The notes beneath the pieces are model-generated. The model did no database searches and was not told where the DNA came from. It worked only from the letters and a program-made list of their open reading frames with translations. From Sphingomonadales bacterium 28-55-16 (GTDB taxonomy: Bacteria > Pseudomonadota > Alphaproteobacteria > Sphingomonadales > Sphingomonadaceae): 64,000 nucleotides of DNA. The stretch lies in assembly GCA_002278855.1 (NCBI GenBank), contig NCGG01000010.1, forward strand, positions 1-64,000. The letters run 5' to 3'. Positions within the stretch are counted from its first letter, which is position 1. The number at the start of each line of letters is the position of its first letter. Made by a program: the position numbers and the translations under genes. This document shows, piece after piece, positions 6,651 through 61,807 of the stretch.

Positions 6651-8059
6651 CACATGTGGATCGGCTTGCCCGTGACCGCCATTGCCGCCTCTTTCAATGC
6701 TTCGGCCTGAGTCGGATGGGCGTGGCAGGTATAGGCAATGTCTTCGGATGTTGCGCCAAATTCCATTGCCACGCATGCTTCGGCGATCATACTGCCTGCA
6801 ATCGACGCAATGATATGCACGCCCAAAACGCGGTCTGTCTTGGCATCAGCGATAACTTTTACAAACCCATCAGTGTCCCGGTTTGTCTTCGCCCGGCTGT
6901 TCGCCATCATCGGGAATTTGCCAACCTTGATCTCGCCACCGGAAGCCGCTGCTTGCGCTGTTGCCTCTTCCTCGGTCAAGCCGACATTGGCAATTTCAGG
7001 GAATGTGTAGACCACGCCTGGAATGACGTCATGATTCACGATTCCCGTCAGGCCAGCAACAAATTCTGCTGCGGCGATTCCTTCATCTTCGGCCTTATGC
7101 GCCAGCATTGGACCGGGGCAGACGTCGCCCACGGCGTAAATGCCCGGAACGCGCGTCTGGAAATCATGGCCGATGTCAACCTGGCCACGCGCGTTGACGC
7201 TAAGCCCGGCCTTATCAAGCGCAAGGCCATCGGTATTGGCACGGCGACCAATGGCGACAAGGACGCAATCAGCTTCAATGGTTTCGCTTGCACCGCCACT
7301 GGCAGGTTCGACAGTCAATTTCGCCGTAGCGTCGTTGACGATTGCGCCAGTGACCTTTGTTCCAGTGCGGATGTTGAAGCCTTGCTTCTTGAATATTTTC
7401 GCGGCTTCCTTGCGGACTTCACCGTCCATGCCGGGCAATATCTGGTCGAGATATTCAACGACCGTGACTTGCGCGCCAAGGCGCAACCACACGCTGCCGA
7501 GTTCAAGGCCAATCACACCGCCGCCGATCACGACCAAATGCTTTGGGACTTTGGGCAAGGCCAATGCGCCGGTTGAATCGACGATGACTTTCTGGTCAAT
7601 CTCAACACCGGGCAGCGGCGTGACAGAGGAACCGGTTGCGATCATGATATTCTGCGCGCTGTAGCTTTTGCCGGCAACATCGATGCTGTTCGCTGACGTA
7701 AAGGCCGCATGTCCCTTAAGCCAGTCGACCTTGTTCTTTTTGAAGAGAAACTCGATGCCGCCAGTTAATTCGCCAACGGCCTTTGCCTTTTCCGCGTGCA
7801 TTTGGTCCAGATTGAGGGAGACGCCCGTGAAATCGATCCCGAATTTGGCGAGTGATCCCGACTGCGCCTCGTGAAAAATTTCGGACGCGTGCAGCAATGC
7901 CTTCGATGGAATACAACCAACGTTTAGGCATGTGCCACCCAAGGTTTCCCGGCTTTCAACGCAAGCCGTTTTGAGCCCGAGTTGTGCAGCGCGAATAGCG
8001 GCGACATAGCCACCAGGACCTGCACCAATAACGATCAGGTCATAATCATGTTCTGCCAT
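6650..8059 (-). CDS. lpdA: Dihydrolipoyl dehydrogenase (E3)
   Basis: This 469-residue FAD flavoprotein reoxidises dihydrolipoyl groups of the 2-oxo acid dehydrogenase complexes with NAD. The N-terminal GAGPGGYVAAIRAAQLG is the FAD-binding Rossmann motif. GGTCLNVGCIPSKALL carries the redox-active disulfide, IGGGVIGLELGSV is the NAD-binding motif, and CHAHPTQAEAL near the C-terminus provides the catalytic His-Glu dyad. It follows sucB by 12 bases, so it serves the 2-oxoglutarate dehydrogenase complex encoded here. Length is standard. Confidence 0.97.
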   Translation of the reverse strand: MAEHDYDLIVIGAGPGGYVAAIRAAQLGLKTACVESRETLGGTCLNVGCIPSKALLHASEIFHEAQSGSLAKFGIDFTGVSLNLDQMHAEKAKAVGELTGGIEFLFKKNKVDWLKGHAAFTSANSIDVAGKSYSAQNIMIATGSSVTPLPGVEIDQKVIVDSTGALALPKVPKHLVVIGGGVIGLELGSVWLRLGAQVTVVEYLDQILPGMDGEVRKEAAKIFKKQGFNIRTGTKVTGAIVNDATAKLTVEPASGGASETIEADCVLVAIGRRANTDGLALDKAGLSVNARGQVDIGHDFQTRVPGIYAVGDVCPGPMLAHKAEDEGIAAAEFVAGLTGIVNHDVIPGVVYTFPEIANVGLTEEEATAQAAASGGEIKVGKFPMMANSRAKTNRDTDGFVKVIADAKTDRVLGVHIIASIAGSMIAEACVAMEFGATSEDIAYTCHAHPTQAEALKEAAMAVTGKPIHM

Positions 8060-51783: not shown

Positions 51784-53109
51784 ATGGAGATAGCTAAAAG
51801 ATCTATGGCCTCGTTGGCTAAATGCCGCGACCTAAAGTCTCTGCCGTTGCTTGTGATAGGCTTGCTAGTAAGCGTGCTTCTGGTGCTAAACGGCGTCCTA
51901 TTTCCCACGTACACGGTCTCCATGGCGTCACCAGCGTGGGAGGCTGCGCGGCAATTGGGTCTGCCATATGTTATATCCGAAATTGGGGTCATCATTTATG
52001 CTCTGCGCGGAGGACTTCACTTATGCGAGGTGTGGAAGCGATTTCCACGGAATGTGCAGTATTGTGCCATCCTCTTTTTGGCGTCGTTCTGGGTAGGCAG
52101 CGCATTTTATTCCAAGGTTACACCACTCGCAATTGTGCAGAACATTGTATTCCTAATTCATCCGCTTTTCGGGATAGCCGTCTATTATTCAGCATCACGC
52201 GCCGACGCCCGAGGGTTAAGAGCACTCACTCTCGCCCTAGTAGGCGGCTTGTTAATATTCTGCGGGATGACGGCGTCCGCATTCCTAAACCATCCGCCCT
52301 TGGCAACGATGCCAGATAACACGATCGTGTGGCAGTTCATCATTCCCGGCTTTATTTCGGTACGTCTGTTTGGGGCATTTTGTGGTGCAATTTTCTGCTT
52401 CCTCTTGGCGCAGTTTCTGCTGGATGAAGAGCGAGGTGGCAGAAGACATTTGCCCTATTTGTGGCTCACTTTATGTGCCGCAATGACGATATGGTCGGGT
52501 ACAAGAAATGCGGTTCTTGGGATAGTCGTCGCAATGACGGTGACCCTGATTTTGTATCGCCTGCATCCGATGAAAGCGAAATCGGTCTTTTTGTTGGCGC
52601 TCTCAGCTCTGGTTGCAACGCTGTCAGCGACCAGTCTCATTCCCTATAATGATCCAGCCTTTATGCTGATAGCGGGCGAAGACGTGGCAACATCCGAGAG
52701 CATTTCTGGAGGGCGCGCGTCCTATTGGTTTGCGCTCTGGCATGCCTATCAGACCGTTCCCGCGTTTGGCGCGGGGCCGTTTGCATCTTTTTGGATTTTA
52801 CCCGCCGGCGAGCAAATTCATGTTCAACCGCACAATATTGTACTGCAGTTTCTTCTGACGTGGGGGCTACCCGCAACTGTCGCAGCGCTCGCATTGCTGG
52901 CCTACGCAACGTGGAGAGCTCACCTTGCCGCTCTCGAACATCGCGATGTGTTGCCATTTGTGGCGATGCTTGACTGCCTTCTGGCGATGTCCTTTTTTGA
53001 CGGCATGTTTCATTTCGCGCAGCCACTTATGTTGATCATGATTTCGTTTGGGGTCATTTTTGGCGCGACTAAACTGCAGGATAAACCTTTAGCTGCACTC
53101 GGAAACTAA
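51784..53109 (+). CDS. O-antigen ligase-like membrane protein
   Basis: This 441-residue polytopic protein has about 11 membrane helices and a large periplasmic loop, as in WaaL/Wzy_C proteins. The conserved region GTRNAVLGIVVAMTVTLIL follows the usual position, and the HPH-type loop is seen as QPHNIVLQFLLTWGLPAT near residue 345. It could ligate O-antigen to lipid A-core or polymerise repeat units. It lies alone, 114 bases after the DUF885 gene, and is less GC-rich than its neighbours. Confidence 0.82.
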   Translation: MEIAKRSMASLAKCRDLKSLPLLVIGLLVSVLLVLNGVLFPTYTVSMASPAWEAARQLGLPYVISEIGVIIYALRGGLHLCEVWKRFPRNVQYCAILFLASFWVGSAFYSKVTPLAIVQNIVFLIHPLFGIAVYYSASRADARGLRALTLALVGGLLIFCGMTASAFLNHPPLATMPDNTIVWQFIIPGFISVRLFGAFCGAIFCFLLAQFLLDEERGGRRHLPYLWLTLCAAMTIWSGTRNAVLGIVVAMTVTLILYRLHPMKAKSVFLLALSALVATLSATSLIPYNDPAFMLIAGEDVATSESISGGRASYWFALWHAYQTVPAFGAGPFASFWILPAGEQIHVQPHNIVLQFLLTWGLPATVAALALLAYATWRAHLAALEHRDVLPFVAMLDCLLAMSFFDGMFHFAQPLMLIMISFGVIFGATKLQDKPLAALGN

Positions 53110-56069: not shown

Positions 56070-57023
56070 ATGAACAGCACCTACTATATTGCTCTGCTTT
56101 GCGCAGGCGTGCTGATGGCAACTGCACTATGCTTTAATGCAGTGCGAATTGCTAGTTCACTGAATTTGATGGATATACCGGCAGGCAGAAAACAGCACGT
56201 CGCTCCAACCCCGCTGATGGGAGGCGTCGTGCTCCTTGTCGCCTTTGTGCCCGTCGCTCTTATCTGCATTGTCGCTTTTGCTTCCGAGCGTTGGTACGGG
56301 TCTTTACTGATTTGGTTGGGCTGCGTATCGGTCATGGCGTTAGTCGGGTTGGGCGATGATAGGCACTCTCTTTCGCCACGTGTAAGGCTTTTGATTTCTT
56401 TTGCCGTGTTCGCCGCCGCCGCCGCAGTTGATCCGACGTTCAATGTTCGGGTGCTTGATTTCAACATACCCCCATTTTCCTTAGGATTGGGCACGTGGTG
56501 GGTAGCGATCGTCTTTACCGTCGTCTGCTGCGTCGGCCTTTTAAACGCGGTTAACATGGCTGACGGTAAAAACGGTTTGGTTTTGGGGCTTTCCCTGGGC
56601 TGGTTAGCAATTTTAGCAACCCGTGCGACCGGCCCTTTATTAACATTGATCGGCTTGTTCGCAGGCGTACTGACAGTTTTGCTTGTCTTTAACATTAGAG
56701 GACGGCTGTTCCTCGGCGATGGCGGAGCTTACGCAATCGCGGCCGCAATCGGATTGCTGGCGATTATGGTTTACAATACGCCGGGGACGCATTCGATCCG
56801 GGCAATTAGTGCAGATGAATTGGTAATATTGTTTATCGTGCCAGTGGCGGACTCTTTCCGCTTAGCCTATAAGCGGCTTCGAGCAGGAAGGTCACCAATG
56901 TCTGCTGATAGAGATCATTTACATCACCACTTGCAGGATAGGTATGGGTGGCCAGGAGGTTTGTTAGTGTATTGGGTCGCGGCTTTTATGCCGGCTTTTA
57001 TCCTAGTAGCCATAAGCATTTAA
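56070..57023 (+). CDS. WecA/MraY-family polyprenyl-phosphate glycosyl-1-phosphate transferase
   Basis: This 317-residue integral membrane protein has about 10 helices. It moves a sugar-1-phosphate from a UDP-sugar to undecaprenyl phosphate, the first committed step of many surface glycans. The catalytic acidic motif is GLGDDRH (Asp96-Asp97), NAVNMADGKNGL (Asn162, Asp165) corresponds to the family's NxxNxxDGxdGL, FLGDGG carries Asp217, and the C-terminal HLHHH at 283-287 is the WecA-type histidine motif. It begins the plus-strand part of the polysaccharide cluster. Confidence 0.9.
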   Translation: MNSTYYIALLCAGVLMATALCFNAVRIASSLNLMDIPAGRKQHVAPTPLMGGVVLLVAFVPVALICIVAFASERWYGSLLIWLGCVSVMALVGLGDDRHSLSPRVRLLISFAVFAAAAAVDPTFNVRVLDFNIPPFSLGLGTWWVAIVFTVVCCVGLLNAVNMADGKNGLVLGLSLGWLAILATRATGPLLTLIGLFAGVLTVLLVFNIRGRLFLGDGGAYAIAAAIGLLAIMVYNTPGTHSIRAISADELVILFIVPVADSFRLAYKRLRAGRSPMSADRDHLHHHLQDRYGWPGGLLVYWVAAFMPAFILVAISI

Positions 57024-57226: not shown

Positions 57227-57427
57227 ATGATGCATCACAAGAAACTTATCATCGCTGGAATGATGCTAGCGTTCCTGCCATGGGCACCAGCCCATGCTTA
57301 TGTTGATCCTGGCACCGGACTTTTGTTGGTGCAGGGCCTCGTGGCATTCATTGGCGGCGTAGTAGTTTTTTTGAAAAACCCCATCGCGTCGATCAAAGCG
57401 CTCATTGCTCGGCGTCCTAAAAAGTGA
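57227..57427 (+). CDS. Small 'YVDPGTG' membrane protein
   Basis: This 66-residue protein has an N-terminal signal-like helix ending in an A-H-A cleavage pattern, then the YVDPGTGLLLVQGLVA motif and a second hydrophobic helix. The tail is basic (ALIARRPKK). Small proteins with this Y-[IV]-DPGTG motif occur in polysaccharide loci next to sulfatase-like genes; no function is established. Its stop overlaps the GTG start of the methyltransferase (GTGA), so it forms the first gene of a coupled trio. Confidence 0.72.
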   Translation: MMHHKKLIIAGMMLAFLPWAPAHAYVDPGTGLLLVQGLVAFIGGVVVFLKNPIASIKALIARRPKK

Positions 57428-58749
57428 GAGATCCGATTGGTCGGGTAGAAGTGTCTGTGGATAGTGTTCTGAGGCATGCCTTCGCACCGCTGGCTGAGCC
57501 TCACTTTCTTGACACTTCAACGGCGGCCCAACTGGTAAAGCGGGGTTTATTGACCCCATTTACCTTCGAAAGCCGAAGTCTAGTCAGAGCGCGTAAAGTT
57601 GGATTTGCAACCTACCCCTGGGAATGGACTCACGGTCAGTTACTGCAAGCCGCATCTGTTACGCTCGACGTGGCAGAAGCAGCGTTGACAGAGGGACATG
57701 AGTTGAAGGATGCTTCCGCCCTTAATGTTTTGTTCGAGCGGGACCGGCCAGAATTTTGCGATCACTTTTCAATGCAGCCGATCCAGCGCCGACAGTGGTG
57801 GGCTTACGGCCAGTTTTTAAGGCACTTCTTGTTCCCGCTGGCAGTTTCGCGTCATTTGGGCATGGAGCCGGCGGAGGTGTTCAAGGCCAGTCTCGATGGC
57901 CTTTCGCTCGAAAACACCCGGACGTTACTTGGTTCGAAATGCTGGACTTCACGCATTGGAATTGCGCTTCTGCGGCGGCAAGGTCACAATGGCAGATCGA
58001 AATTAGCGCTCCCGTCCCCCAGCGATAATTCGCCTAACCCTTTGCACCAGAGACTGATAGACTTCTTGCGCTGGCAATTGTCGGGGCTAGAGCACGTGCC
58101 GCGCATTTCCGAGTGGGCTTCCTACGAACAGACACGCAATCACTATCCGTTGATTAGTCTGGAGTGTAAGCGCGGGACCGTTGCTCGCTGGTTGTCCCTT
58201 ACAAACCCGAGGTGGGTAGTGGACCTCGGCTGTAACCAAGGCGAGTTCTCGTTTGTCGCCACGGGAATTGCCGCAGCGGGCGTGATCGCTGTCGATGCTG
58301 ACATGGCAGCAATCGGTCGCCTGCGCGCGAAGCTAACCAATGAGACCTCCATCTACACCGTCTGCGCAAACTTAGACGATCTGCCGAGAGGCCGCGGATG
58401 GATGGGGAAGGAATATCCCGGTCTTTTGGAGCGAATAAGCGCGCAAGCCGATGTCGCAATGGCGCTTGCTCTTGTTCATCATCTCGTGATCGGCCGCAGC
58501 ATTCCGTTGACCGAAGTGGCCGAGTTGATGGCTGCCTCCACGCGTCGCTATTTGATTGTAGAGTATTTGGAGGCTGATGATCCGATGGTTCAGGCGCTGC
58601 TTCTCAGTCGCGACCGTATCGACGACACCGGTTTCACGCTAGAGGATCAGCGGCGGGCATTTGGGCAACGGTTCCAAACAATCGAAGAAATCGTTCTAGA
58701 GGGTTCATCGCGGCGCTTGGCATTGCTGGAGAAGCTTACACCGGCATGA
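57424..58749 (+). CDS. Two-domain SAM methyltransferase with kinase-like N-terminal half
   Basis: This is a 441-residue protein. The C-terminal half (about 245-441) is a class I SAM-dependent methyltransferase with motif I VVDLGCNQGEFS (265-276), then an acidic DADM after strand 2 (291-294), and ALVHHLV at 349-355. The N-terminal half has ATYPWEWTHGQLLQAASVTL and LKDASALNVLFERDRPEFCD. There D96, N101 and D113 have the same spacing as the catalytic loop and metal Asp of kinase-like phosphotransferases. The family resembles NoeA-type proteins. The start is GTG overlapping the preceding stop, and the stop overlaps the next start (ATGA). The substrate is probably a glycan; this is inference. Confidence 0.75.
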   Translation: MRDPIGRVEVSVDSVLRHAFAPLAEPHFLDTSTAAQLVKRGLLTPFTFESRSLVRARKVGFATYPWEWTHGQLLQAASVTLDVAEAALTEGHELKDASALNVLFERDRPEFCDHFSMQPIQRRQWWAYGQFLRHFLFPLAVSRHLGMEPAEVFKASLDGLSLENTRTLLGSKCWTSRIGIALLRRQGHNGRSKLALPSPSDNSPNPLHQRLIDFLRWQLSGLEHVPRISEWASYEQTRNHYPLISLECKRGTVARWLSLTNPRWVVDLGCNQGEFSFVATGIAAAGVIAVDADMAAIGRLRAKLTNETSIYTVCANLDDLPRGRGWMGKEYPGLLERISAQADVAMALALVHHLVIGRSIPLTEVAELMAASTRRYLIVEYLEADDPMVQALLLSRDRIDDTGFTLEDQRRAFGQRFQTIEEIVLEGSSRRLALLEKLTPA

Positions 58750-60074
58750 AGATTTTGAAGATCCATCATCGCCTCAGCCATTGGCTCGCGCACGCCTCCG
58801 TAATCGCGACGCTGATGTTGCTATCGCGGTCCCATTGGGTTTTTAGCAAGCTGTATCATGGCGGGCAATCGGTAGAAAACATCTGTCTGGCCATCGCCGT
58901 ATTCCTTGGTTTTGTGCTGCTAATGCTGGTGCCGGTCGCAATACTATTACCTATCAGGATGGCCGAGACCGCGCTGCGGATCTTGACAGTTTCGGTAACG
59001 CTCTATGTCTTTTGGCCGACCATACGGACGCTGCCTATCGTTTCACAAGAGTTAGGCGCTGCCCAAAAAATCGGTTTGATTGGGGGTACGTTGATACTTG
59101 CTGCGTTGGCAGCAGCCAAGCTGACACCTGAACTGTGGCGCCGCATGCAGAAAGCGATCGTATTTGCAGCCATTCTGTACATAGCCTTTCCAATGTTGCT
59201 CGCGCGCGTGACCGACCCGCTTGTTTTGCAGATGCCGAGGCAGGGCCCACTGGTTGTGCTATTATTGGACGAGCTAAATGCCGACGCCGGCGAACAGATC
59301 GCCGCTGCGATTGCCCTAGAGGGTGGAGAGCCGAGAACACGCTTGATCCAGGCAGTTGGGCCCTCTACGATCACCGTAATTCCGGAGTTTTTGGGCGGCC
59401 CTCACATGCCGCAGGCTCGGGTCTGTTCGCCCACGGCGGTGTGTGACACCTCGGGCGTTTTTGACTTTTCAAGACTGCGCTTCGACCCGACAGATAGAAT
59501 GCACATTGTCGGCTTCTTCCACCCATATTGTTCTGCGAGTGGACTTGCTTCATGCGCGGGCGTGTCAATCCCTTCTAGCGTTTCGCCAATTATCGATCTG
59601 CTGTGCAGTTTTGGGCGGATACTACCCGGAAAGAAGGCTGACGACTGCGTTTGGTTTGACGCCCGGAGCTGGCAGGCGTTTCGGATGCGCGCGCGCGACA
59701 CGATGTTTTTATCGCCATTTTGGCAGGAGGGCGGAATTCTTTATGCACATATGCCCTTTCCGCATCCACCCGGAAACCTACAGGGAGCAGGGCTAGCGGC
59801 CGACTACGGTGATAATTTGAAATTGGCGGCTAACACTGCTGCGCAAGTCTGGAAGCGGGGACGCGCCCGTTTTGGCGACGATTTCCGGCTCATCGTCACT
59901 TCTGATCACCCTCTTCGGCCTGAGCTGTACTGCAGGCATGAAAAGTACCTAGAAACCGGCTGCAATATTACACCCTCGGCTTTTGAAGGGTTCGTTCCTT
60001 ACATCGAGGTGGGACAAAGATTTAGTGATGTATTAAAAATTGAAGACAACGCAAATATATTTAAAAAAAATTAA
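58746..60074 (+). CDS. Membrane-anchored sulfatase-like/alkaline-phosphatase-superfamily protein
   Basis: This 442-residue protein has about five N-terminal membrane helices (residues 12-155), then a periplasmic or extracytoplasmic domain. LVVLLLDELN (Asp175, Glu176) is the first metal motif. AHMPFPHPPG at 334-343 and VTSDHPLRPE at 384-393 match the later metal sites of sulfatase/phosphoethanolamine-transferase proteins. The nucleophile is probably a Ser/Thr in GPSTIT (205-210). It could add or remove a phospho- or sulfo-group on a glycan. It is third in the coupled trio (ATGA overlap). Confidence 0.72.
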   Translation: MKILKIHHRLSHWLAHASVIATLMLLSRSHWVFSKLYHGGQSVENICLAIAVFLGFVLLMLVPVAILLPIRMAETALRILTVSVTLYVFWPTIRTLPIVSQELGAAQKIGLIGGTLILAALAAAKLTPELWRRMQKAIVFAAILYIAFPMLLARVTDPLVLQMPRQGPLVVLLLDELNADAGEQIAAAIALEGGEPRTRLIQAVGPSTITVIPEFLGGPHMPQARVCSPTAVCDTSGVFDFSRLRFDPTDRMHIVGFFHPYCSASGLASCAGVSIPSSVSPIIDLLCSFGRILPGKKADDCVWFDARSWQAFRMRARDTMFLSPFWQEGGILYAHMPFPHPPGNLQGAGLAADYGDNLKLAANTAAQVWKRGRARFGDDFRLIVTSDHPLRPELYCRHEKYLETGCNITPSAFEGFVPYIEVGQRFSDVLKIEDNANIFKKN

Positions 60075-60448
60075 TCTATTGAAAACTTAATTTAATGACG
60101 TTCATAATTTTCAGAATGTTAAATAAAAATTTTTTGTATTCAAGCGCGAATTGAGACGATGTGGATTGCATCGCGGCATCTGCATGCCGCTCTACGAATG
60201 AGCGCTTAGCCCGCAGGCTTTTGGCTTGCCGAAACACTATTTTGGGCGAAGCAAAGATTTTGGGATCGACGGTCAGTTAGATCCGTCGCTTCCGTTTGGG
60301 CAGGTTTGTTGCGTCACCGCGTCTCCGTTCCATATACTCAAGGATGAAGTTGGCGTTATCGTCCGTGTTGGCCAGCGGCACTTCGGGCGCGGGCCCGTCA
60401 GTGACCATGGTTGGCATAACACCTTCGAGGCCGGAGATTTCTCGTCGT
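60075..60448. other. 374-bp gap with AT-rich segment and transposase-like remnant
   Basis: The first 70 bases are very AT-rich and follow the sulfatase-like gene. From about 60277 a minus-strand frame resembles part of an IS5-type transposase, described separately. No intact gene is seen between the two convergent genes. Confidence 0.55.
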
Positions 60449-60474
60449 TCAGGACAAAGGACTTTCGCTTGCAT
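60277..60474 (-). pseudogene. Possible IS5-type transposase remnant
   Basis: This 65-codon frame runs from an ATG inside the end of the O-antigen ligase gene. It reads ...APEVPLANTDDNANFILEYM and then NLPKRKRRI, resembling the 'ADKGYDANx(I/L)R...IPPKxNRK' stretch of IS5-family transposases. It lacks the flanking catalytic regions and any inverted repeats that I can see. It may instead be an unrelated small frame, so the call is tentative. Confidence 0.3.
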
Positions 60475-61807
60475 CGTTAGAAGCGCTCGGGTTGAAAAAC
60501 CATATTACGAAAATAGCCATCACTGCTATCATGATGGGTGTCCTTAATGGATAATCGACAGTGCTTGCTATAGCGAGCAATCCGATCCCAACACCCGCGG
60601 CCCGGCTCAAGATGGACCTGCTGCCGGGTTCGGCGCCTGGGCGCCACAAATGGTACATACGCCACAAATAAAACACCACTGCAATCGCCAATAGAACGCA
60701 ACCTGGAATGCCAAATGTTAAGGCAGTTTCTATCCAATCATTATGGGCTCTGTTAAGATATGAATTATCCAAAAGCCGGTTAGGTTCCGCAAGCTGGTAA
60801 GCCTGAACAAAAGACCCTGCACCAGCGCCCCATGGAGCAAAATTCGATATAATTCCCAACGAAACCGAAACAAACTCTGCTCTGCCGTCCTCATCAAGCG
60901 ACTGGGTAAAGAGCCTTACCATTGCCGCGTCTCGTGAAAATAACAAAGTTAAGGCGCCGAGTACTAGGACTATTCCTGCGCCCAACACCCGAATTTTAGC
61001 AATTAAATCAGGCTGGTCTTTTAGTGGATTTTTTGACTTCGGTCTTGCGTATAAAATGCCAGCCGCTGCTAAGCCAATAGCGCCAGTTACAAATCCCGAA
61101 CGGGACCCTGTGACTAATATCATGGGGACGACAAAAACTCCAATTGCTAAGCACAATAGCTCTCGGGCACGCTGCTTTTCTCGTGTCTCTGCTCTGCCTG
61201 AGGCAAAAGCGGCCAACATAGGAATTAGGCAGGCGAGCAATGTTGCTGCGTGATTGCGGTTAGCAAAAAACCCGGTGGCGGAGCCATTGTTGCCGATCCT
61301 GTAGAAGTATAATGGCCCAGTTGGGCTACTACCGAGTTGAATAAGGCCCAAAAGTCCAGACAAAGCTGCGAGTGTTATCAAAAAAGGGAGAAGCAAATCC
61401 TTTTCACGCTGACTAAGCTGAATGCCGAGTAGAATTATCGATAAGGGGACCAGTAGGGCACAAAATGCCTGCCAGCCATCAAAGGGTGACAGTGTAAATT
61501 GGTGCCAAATACCATCATTTCCGATGAGTTGTGATATTGCTACTAGGCTTGTGTTGTAACTTATTGATGTCCATGTGGCGATCGGAAGGGGCATAACATG
61601 AGTAATGGTAAGTCCTAAAGCGCCGCTTAGGCCAACTAATGGCAAATAGTATGGTCGAAAATGCTTTGCCTGTAACGTTGATAGTGCGATACCTAAAAAC
61701 ATGACCGACACTGGACGCAAAATTGCTAATGATTGCTCGTCTGTTCTCGACGAACCGCCTGTTGCGAAGATGATGCCCAGCAGAACAGCAAGCAACCAGA
61801 ATTGCAT
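60449..61807 (-). CDS. O-antigen ligase-like membrane protein (second copy type)
   Basis: This 452-residue protein has about 12 hydrophobic helices and the Wzy_C/WaaL pattern. GSRSGFVTGAIGLAAAGILY is the conserved motif, and AHNDWIETALTFGIPGCVLL is the C-terminal periplasmic-loop region. It could polymerise or ligate the glycan made by this cluster. The ATG at 61807 was preferred over a GTG at 61894, because the first helix begins right after it. It is transcribed divergently from wzc, with a 260-base AT-rich region between them. Confidence 0.83.
   Translation of the reverse strand: MQFWLLAVLLGIIFATGGSSRTDEQSLAILRPVSVMFLGIALSTLQAKHFRPYYLPLVGLSGALGLTITHVMPLPIATWTSISYNTSLVAISQLIGNDGIWHQFTLSPFDGWQAFCALLVPLSIILLGIQLSQREKDLLLPFLITLAALSGLLGLIQLGSSPTGPLYFYRIGNNGSATGFFANRNHAATLLACLIPMLAAFASGRAETREKQRARELLCLAIGVFVVPMILVTGSRSGFVTGAIGLAAAGILYARPKSKNPLKDQPDLIAKIRVLGAGIVLVLGALTLLFSRDAAMVRLFTQSLDEDGRAEFVSVSLGIISNFAPWGAGAGSFVQAYQLAEPNRLLDNSYLNRAHNDWIETALTFGIPGCVLLAIAVVFYLWRMYHLWRPGAEPGSRSILSRAAGVGIGLLAIASTVDYPLRTPIMIAVMAIFVIWFFNPSASNDASESPLS

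Follow-up and report, generated by a model that had tools for sequence, protein, structure and literature searches.

A divergent NoeA-family gene predicted to fuse a kinase-like domain to a methyltransferase at a surface-glycan locus of Sphingomonadales bacterium 28-55-16

The Locus and Its Three-Gene Unit

The window (the whole stretch of 64,000 nucleotides of Sphingomonadales bacterium 28-55-16 DNA that was analyzed) contains a noeA-like gene that is flanked by a small membrane-protein gene and a noeB-like gene, with surface-glycan genes on both sides. The features discussed below are the following; invariance refers to an alignment of 33 homologous proteins.

51784-53109, forward: O-antigen ligase/polymerase-type membrane protein (Wzy_C), surface-glycan context
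56070-57023, forward: WecA/MraY-type glycosyltransferase (PF00953), glycan initiation on a lipid carrier
57227-57427, forward: small membrane protein of 66 aa with a signal-like N-terminus (judged by eye), the motif AYVDPGTG and a hydrophobic helix
57424-58749, forward: noeA-like gene, kinase-like plus methyltransferase fusion, 441 aa
57424-58098, forward: kinase-like domain, residues 1 to about 225, from a predicted model
57472-57474, forward: codon of R17, invariant in 33/33, on the strand that precedes the first helix of the N-lobe; it may occupy the position of the ATP-anchoring lysine
57709-57762, forward: catalytic-loop region with D96 (57709-57711), N101 (57724-57726) and D113 (57760-57762), all invariant
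58099-58746, forward: class I SAM methyltransferase domain, residues about 226-441
58477-58482, forward: H352-H353, invariant, aligned with WbdD H132-H133 (phosphate handling)
58711-58713, forward: R430, invariant, at the start of the last beta strand, aligned with WbdD R203 in 10 of 11 alignment settings
58746-60074, forward: divergent noeB-like gene, 442 aa
60449-61894, reverse: second Wzy_C O-antigen ligase/polymerase-type protein

The noeA-like frame opens with GTG. This start is supported because the gene is coupled on both sides: it shares GTGA with the end of the small upstream frame, whose stop is TGA, and 4 nt (ATGA) with the beginning of the noeB-like gene, whose first codon is ATG. 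The small AYxDPGTG membrane gene, noeA and noeB form a tight three-gene unit beside surface-glycan genes. The sequence-only reading of this DNA had placed the fusion in a surface-glycan setting, and the WecA-type transferase and the two Wzy_C proteins near the unit bear this out.

The small gene is a recurrent neighbor of noeA. A homologue stands next to noeA in 22 of 37 loci, Sinorhizobium meliloti pSymA among them, and in 20 of the 22 it is the gene immediately upstream, in the same orientation. The 66-residue protein matched none of the Pfam and NCBIfam families, and among the papers searched the string DPGTGS occurred only in an unrelated one. On pSymA, a small AYLDPGTGS gene lies between a nodL-type acetyltransferase gene and noeA (ORF ending at 7304), within a nodL-noeA-noeB region. 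On a plasmid of Deltaproteobacteria bacterium Smac51, a noeB-type gene is upstream of noeA and a small AYLDPGTGS gene downstream, so that the trio is kept together while its gene order varies. The neighbor Lani_1193 was counted in 65% of the neighborhoods of the published family (PMC9758233), and the 66-residue protein may be its counterpart.

The noeB-like protein has N-terminal membrane helices followed by an alkaline-phosphatase/sulfatase-like domain with PHPP and SDH motifs. Of 32 noeA loci, 27 have a member of the noeB family no more than 1.2 kb away. In the clade formed by the window and two related loci, L001 (a Sphingomonadales MAG) and L002 (Pelomonas sp. Root1444), noeB is recognizable by profile comparison alone: with a NoeB family profile in HMMER, the L001 and L002 relatives of the window noeB stayed at noise level, whereas hhalign of the window type against the NoeB family gave 93% in local and 97% in global alignment, with the PHPP and SDH motifs common to both.

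Membership in the NoeA Family

The 441-residue protein is homologous to S. meliloti NoeA over its full length. It matches NoeA at 27.3% identity over 99% of the query by tblastn (E-values of 2e-27 to 4e-27) and at 28.7% identity by blastp (7.7e-39). Pfam, NCBIfam, PADLOC and PHROGs returned generic methyltransferase matches alone, all below cut-off. Krysinska et al. (2022; PMC9758233) predicted that proteins of the NoeA/Lani_1194 family join a kinase-like domain to a class I methyltransferase. The same study describes conserved D, N and D residues, an arginine in place of the lysine (R38 of Lani_1194 at the ATP-lysine position) and a missing glutamate partner; it reports the family from 1201 species besides Legionella, with the fusion kept in 94% of homologues (PMC9758233). 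The window protein shares with this family the homology to NoeA (27-29%), the domain order, the invariant D, N and D and the arginine, and its gene shares the adjacent noeB and the small upstream gene. It is a divergent member of the family and presumably a bifunctional enzyme, in which a protein-kinase-like domain at the N-terminus is followed by a class I methyltransferase at the C-terminus.

The divergence is seen at individual residues and in the setting. In the window clade, Ala56 replaces a histidine kept in 28 of the 33 aligned proteins, and His70 a phenylalanine kept in 27. The window gene also differs from noeA in lying at a surface-glycan locus, not in a nod operon. The sequence-only reading had called the fusion a little-described enzyme. 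Little described it is, but not new, since the 2022 prediction was in print; the sequence-only reading thus correctly rediscovered a published prediction from the bare letters, in a divergent member. What is new here is the likely phosphate-methylating chemistry, as we discuss below, and the small third gene; the family itself was known.

The Kinase-Like Domain

The starting observation was a kinase-like catalytic loop in the N-terminal half, LKDASALNVLF...EFCD. D96, N101 and D113 are indeed at the positions claimed, with D-x4-N spacing and 12 residues from the asparagine to the second aspartate. The pattern D-x4-N-x(10-14)-D, however, occurs in 10% of composition-preserving shuffles of the protein, and the spacing alone therefore proves nothing. 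Conservation is more telling. Of the 33 aligned proteins, 30 are only 25-30% identical to the window protein, and two are close relatives, 88 and 71% identical. The sequence-only reading had named a lack of conservation of the three residues among homologues as evidence that would refute it; they are invariant in 33/33 and are kept in three further homologues from viral contigs (36/36 in total). Of the 441 columns, 27 are invariant, and three positions named in advance would all land in this set with a probability of about 2e-4, which places the conserved motif well above chance. R17, E67, W68 and S116, among others, are also invariant in the 33 proteins.

The fold was predicted from residues 1-226 (AlphaFold2, pTM 0.77, pLDDT 85-95 around most of the motif region). 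The model has a short N-lobe with strands at 8-10 and 14-18, a helix at 32-39 and strands at 46-50 and 53-57, followed by a long helix (70-89), the loop from D96 to N101, strands at 102-105 and 108-111, D113 and a helix at 128-145. In this model the order of secondary structure fits a kinase with a small N-lobe. Among the 50 best matches to solved structures listed from Foldseek and VIA-align, every chain has a protein-kinase fold, including BMX, JAKs, EGFR, TTBK1, RIO2 and PKR; the best Foldseek match is at 1.5e-4, and VIA-align gives PKR at Z 10.9 (175 residues aligned, 3.6 A) and RIO2 at Z 9.9. An N-terminal half unrelated to kinase-like folds, an outcome that would have counted against the sequence-only reading, did not emerge from the predicted model, and the proposed kinase-like fold gains support from these matches. 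The full-length model is of moderate quality (pLDDT 71.7) because it was built from six rows, the window and related-locus sequences; its top Foldseek matches are NodS and WbdD, and the tyrosine kinase BMX is also under 0.001.

The N-lobe is not canonical. The usual Lys-Glu pair is absent: an arginine stands at the presumed lysine position, and no conserved acidic residue was found in the N-lobe helix as a partner equivalent to the alphaC glutamate. Judging from its position in the sequence, R17 would correspond to R38 of Lani_1194, a Legionella protein described as a putative effector. The missing pair bears on whether the domain is a canonical kinase and leaves the fold untouched.

The kinase family had been proposed to be that of aminoglycoside and choline kinases. 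The kinase likeness and the D, N, D spacing stand, but among the folds listed the likeness is to protein kinases and RIO rather than to aminoglycoside phosphotransferases (APH; PF01636). With these the window protein shares the spacing of the catalytic Asp, the Asn and the metal-binding Asp; it differs from them in having neither the histidine of HxD nor a profile match, and in its top structural matches, which are protein kinases. Position 94, two residues before D96, where HxD kinases carry histidine, is leucine in 33/33, and strictly there is therefore no APH-type HxD loop. Up to an E-value of 1, the list of families matched by the 33 members does not include PF01636, and the profile comparison that the sequence-only reading had suggested went against it (hhalign to APH proteins of related genomes, 0.2%, no match). 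Relatives of the Kdo kinase (PF06293) proved too scarce to serve in such a comparison. None of the 50 matches listed for the model of residues 1-226 is an APH-type fold, and unlisted matches could still include one. The protein matches no Pfam kinase at gathering score.

The Methyltransferase Domain and Its Resemblance to WbdD

The assignment of the C-terminal half to the class I methyltransferases is upheld by profile matches and by the fold matches of the model. The closest fold is NodS (Z 17.0, 2.8 A, 183 residues aligned), and a methylphosphate capping enzyme matches at Z 15.3.

A more specific resemblance is to WbdD, the terminator of the O-antigen chain in E. coli O9a, which adds a phosphate to the last mannose of the chain before methylating that phosphate; H132, H133 and R203 of WbdD are essential for methylation and have been named as enabling the phosphate to act as nucleophile (PMC3482155). 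A profile of the NoeA family reaches WbdD among PDB sequences at 4.5e-6, whereas a search with a single member reached generic methyltransferases alone. In a second, non-significant stretch of the same WbdD chain, D351, N356 and D369 are aligned with D96, N101 and D113. No WbdD relatives were found among 398 genomes of the phylum, and WbdD-like proteins were therefore taken from plasmids; with two of these, hhalign of the NoeA family against WbdD gave 97%. In every profile setting, D59, D82, H132 and H133 of WbdD align to D267, D291, H352 and H353; R203 falls on R430 in 10 of the 11 alignment settings. D267, H352, H353 and R430 are invariant in the family, and D291 is kept in 32/33.

Generic methyltransferases of related genomes served as a control. 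The His-His pair is aligned in none of 24. An arginine is aligned at R203 in 14 of 28 NoeA-family members and in 11 of the 24 controls when single sequences are used, counts that are noisy and about equal. The match of the histidines is thus firm, whereas that of the arginine is no more than suggestive.

The two kinase halves are not significantly alike in sequence (hhalign against the WbdD kinase, 0.7%), and the top folds of the kinase half do not include WbdD. The two proteins thus share a kinase and a class I methyltransferase in one chain, a surface-glycan context, a D-x4-N motif followed 12 or 13 residues on by the metal-binding Asp, and the His-His and, less securely, the Arg of the methyltransferase site. 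They differ in architecture: WbdD has the order methyltransferase, kinase, coiled coil, whereas in the window protein the kinase-like domain comes first and the chain ends at residue 441, with no coiled coil. A second proven combination of kinase and methyltransferase making a methyl-phosphate glycan end is ORF6 of the Klebsiella pneumoniae O7 locus (PMC11231755). Compared by description, it differs from the window protein in its reversed domain order, an AmiN/APH-like kinase, a coiled coil and attached glycosyltransferases (PMC11231755).

Proposed Mechanism and Alternatives

From these comparisons we propose that the fusion phosphorylates a sugar of a surface glycan and then methylates that phosphate. 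This is the most likely mechanism overall, and we hold it with middling confidence. D96 would act as the catalytic base, N101 and D113 would bind Mg-ATP, and R17 would take the place of the usual lysine. The acceptor of the kinase-like domain would be a hydroxyl group of a sugar in a surface glycan located in the cytoplasm and probably bound to a lipid. The methyltransferase, using H352, H353 and R430, would then add a methyl group to that phosphate, as WbdD does on E. coli O9a, but in a protein whose domains stand in the opposite order. The alkaline-phosphatase-type domain of the membrane protein NoeB is presumed to be periplasmic, and NoeB would act at a later stage, on the exported glycan. 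Other points weigh against the proposal. WbdD belongs to ABC-transporter-dependent pathways, whereas the genes around the window gene are of the Wzy type. No methyl-phosphate is known on the S. meliloti Nod factor.

Both halves may be active with the methyl group going elsewhere, to a sugar hydroxyl, carboxyl or amine instead of the phosphate added by the kinase. The closest fold of the methyltransferase half, NodS, is a Nod-factor N-methyltransferase, and the match of R203 to R430 does not discriminate in single sequences. Against this, H352, H353 and R430 are all invariant and are aligned to the phosphate-handling residues of WbdD, and phosphate would be an economical acceptor because a kinase is fused. 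On balance we consider another acceptor unlikely.

The arginine in place of lysine, the missing alphaC glutamate and the leucine in place of the HxD histidine mean that the kinase may be inactive or unusual. Together with the short N-lobe, these features would suit a pseudokinase that has retained the fold, may still bind nucleotide or substrate, and positions or regulates the methyltransferase as the sole active enzyme. Pseudokinases commonly lose at least one of the base and metal-ATP residues, whereas D96, N101 and D113, the residues expected in these roles, are invariant in all homologues. We regard a pseudokinase as unlikely here.

Divergent kinase-like folds can also carry out other ATP-dependent transfers, such as AMPylation by SelO and glutamylation by SidJ, and the atypical pocket residues could be read in this way. 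No specific sequence sign of such a transfer was seen, and the glycan context and the precedent of WbdD favor phosphorylation; we regard this alternative as very unlikely. That the motif is a coincidence in an N-terminal extension of the methyltransferase itself, unrelated to kinases, would agree with its frequency in shuffles and the missing Pfam kinase match, but is hardly credible given the kinase-only folds among the matches listed, the invariance and the independent published prediction (PMC9758233).

Distribution and Horizontal Transfer

Relatives were found in 22 genomes besides its own in a search of 385 genomes of the class, and in 9 genomes, the window's own included, in a sample of the phylum. 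Further relatives were drawn from plasmids, genome contigs and viral contigs, the last yielding three full-length homologues only. Near relatives are rare: among 45 genomes of the genus, one other has an 88% match and two have distant matches.

Outside the class, the Pelomonas contig matches the window noeA at 71%. At this locus (L002), in a beta-proteobacterium, noeB is 61% identical and the small gene is also present, with Wza- and Wzz-type genes and a hexapeptide acetyltransferase gene as neighbors, pointing to horizontal transfer of a surface-glycan module. Identity to the MAG locus L001 is uneven: it is 97-100% over about 58300-60900 of the window, a block that takes in the end of noeA and the whole of noeB, and roughly 73-86% in most blocks leftward and in the N-terminal half of noeA. 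Such a mosaic in the sequence suggests recent recombination between species.

Implications for NoeA and NoeB

In the 1995 work cited in PMC9758233, noeA and noeB are described as Medicago host-range genes. The proposal may be extended to the family as a whole, and we suggest tentatively that its members make up a large class of glycan methyl-phosphate transferases, working as a three-gene unit with NoeB and the small AYxDPGTG membrane protein. If true, this would explain what the rhizobial host-range genes do. It would also mean that the chemistry of WbdD has been reached in reverse domain order, a third arrangement among kinase-methyltransferase glycan-capping enzymes. A concrete chemistry, named residues (D96, D113, H352, H353, and R430) and a partner gene would make the function of NoeA and NoeB, relatives of which have been reported from about 1,200 species, directly testable.
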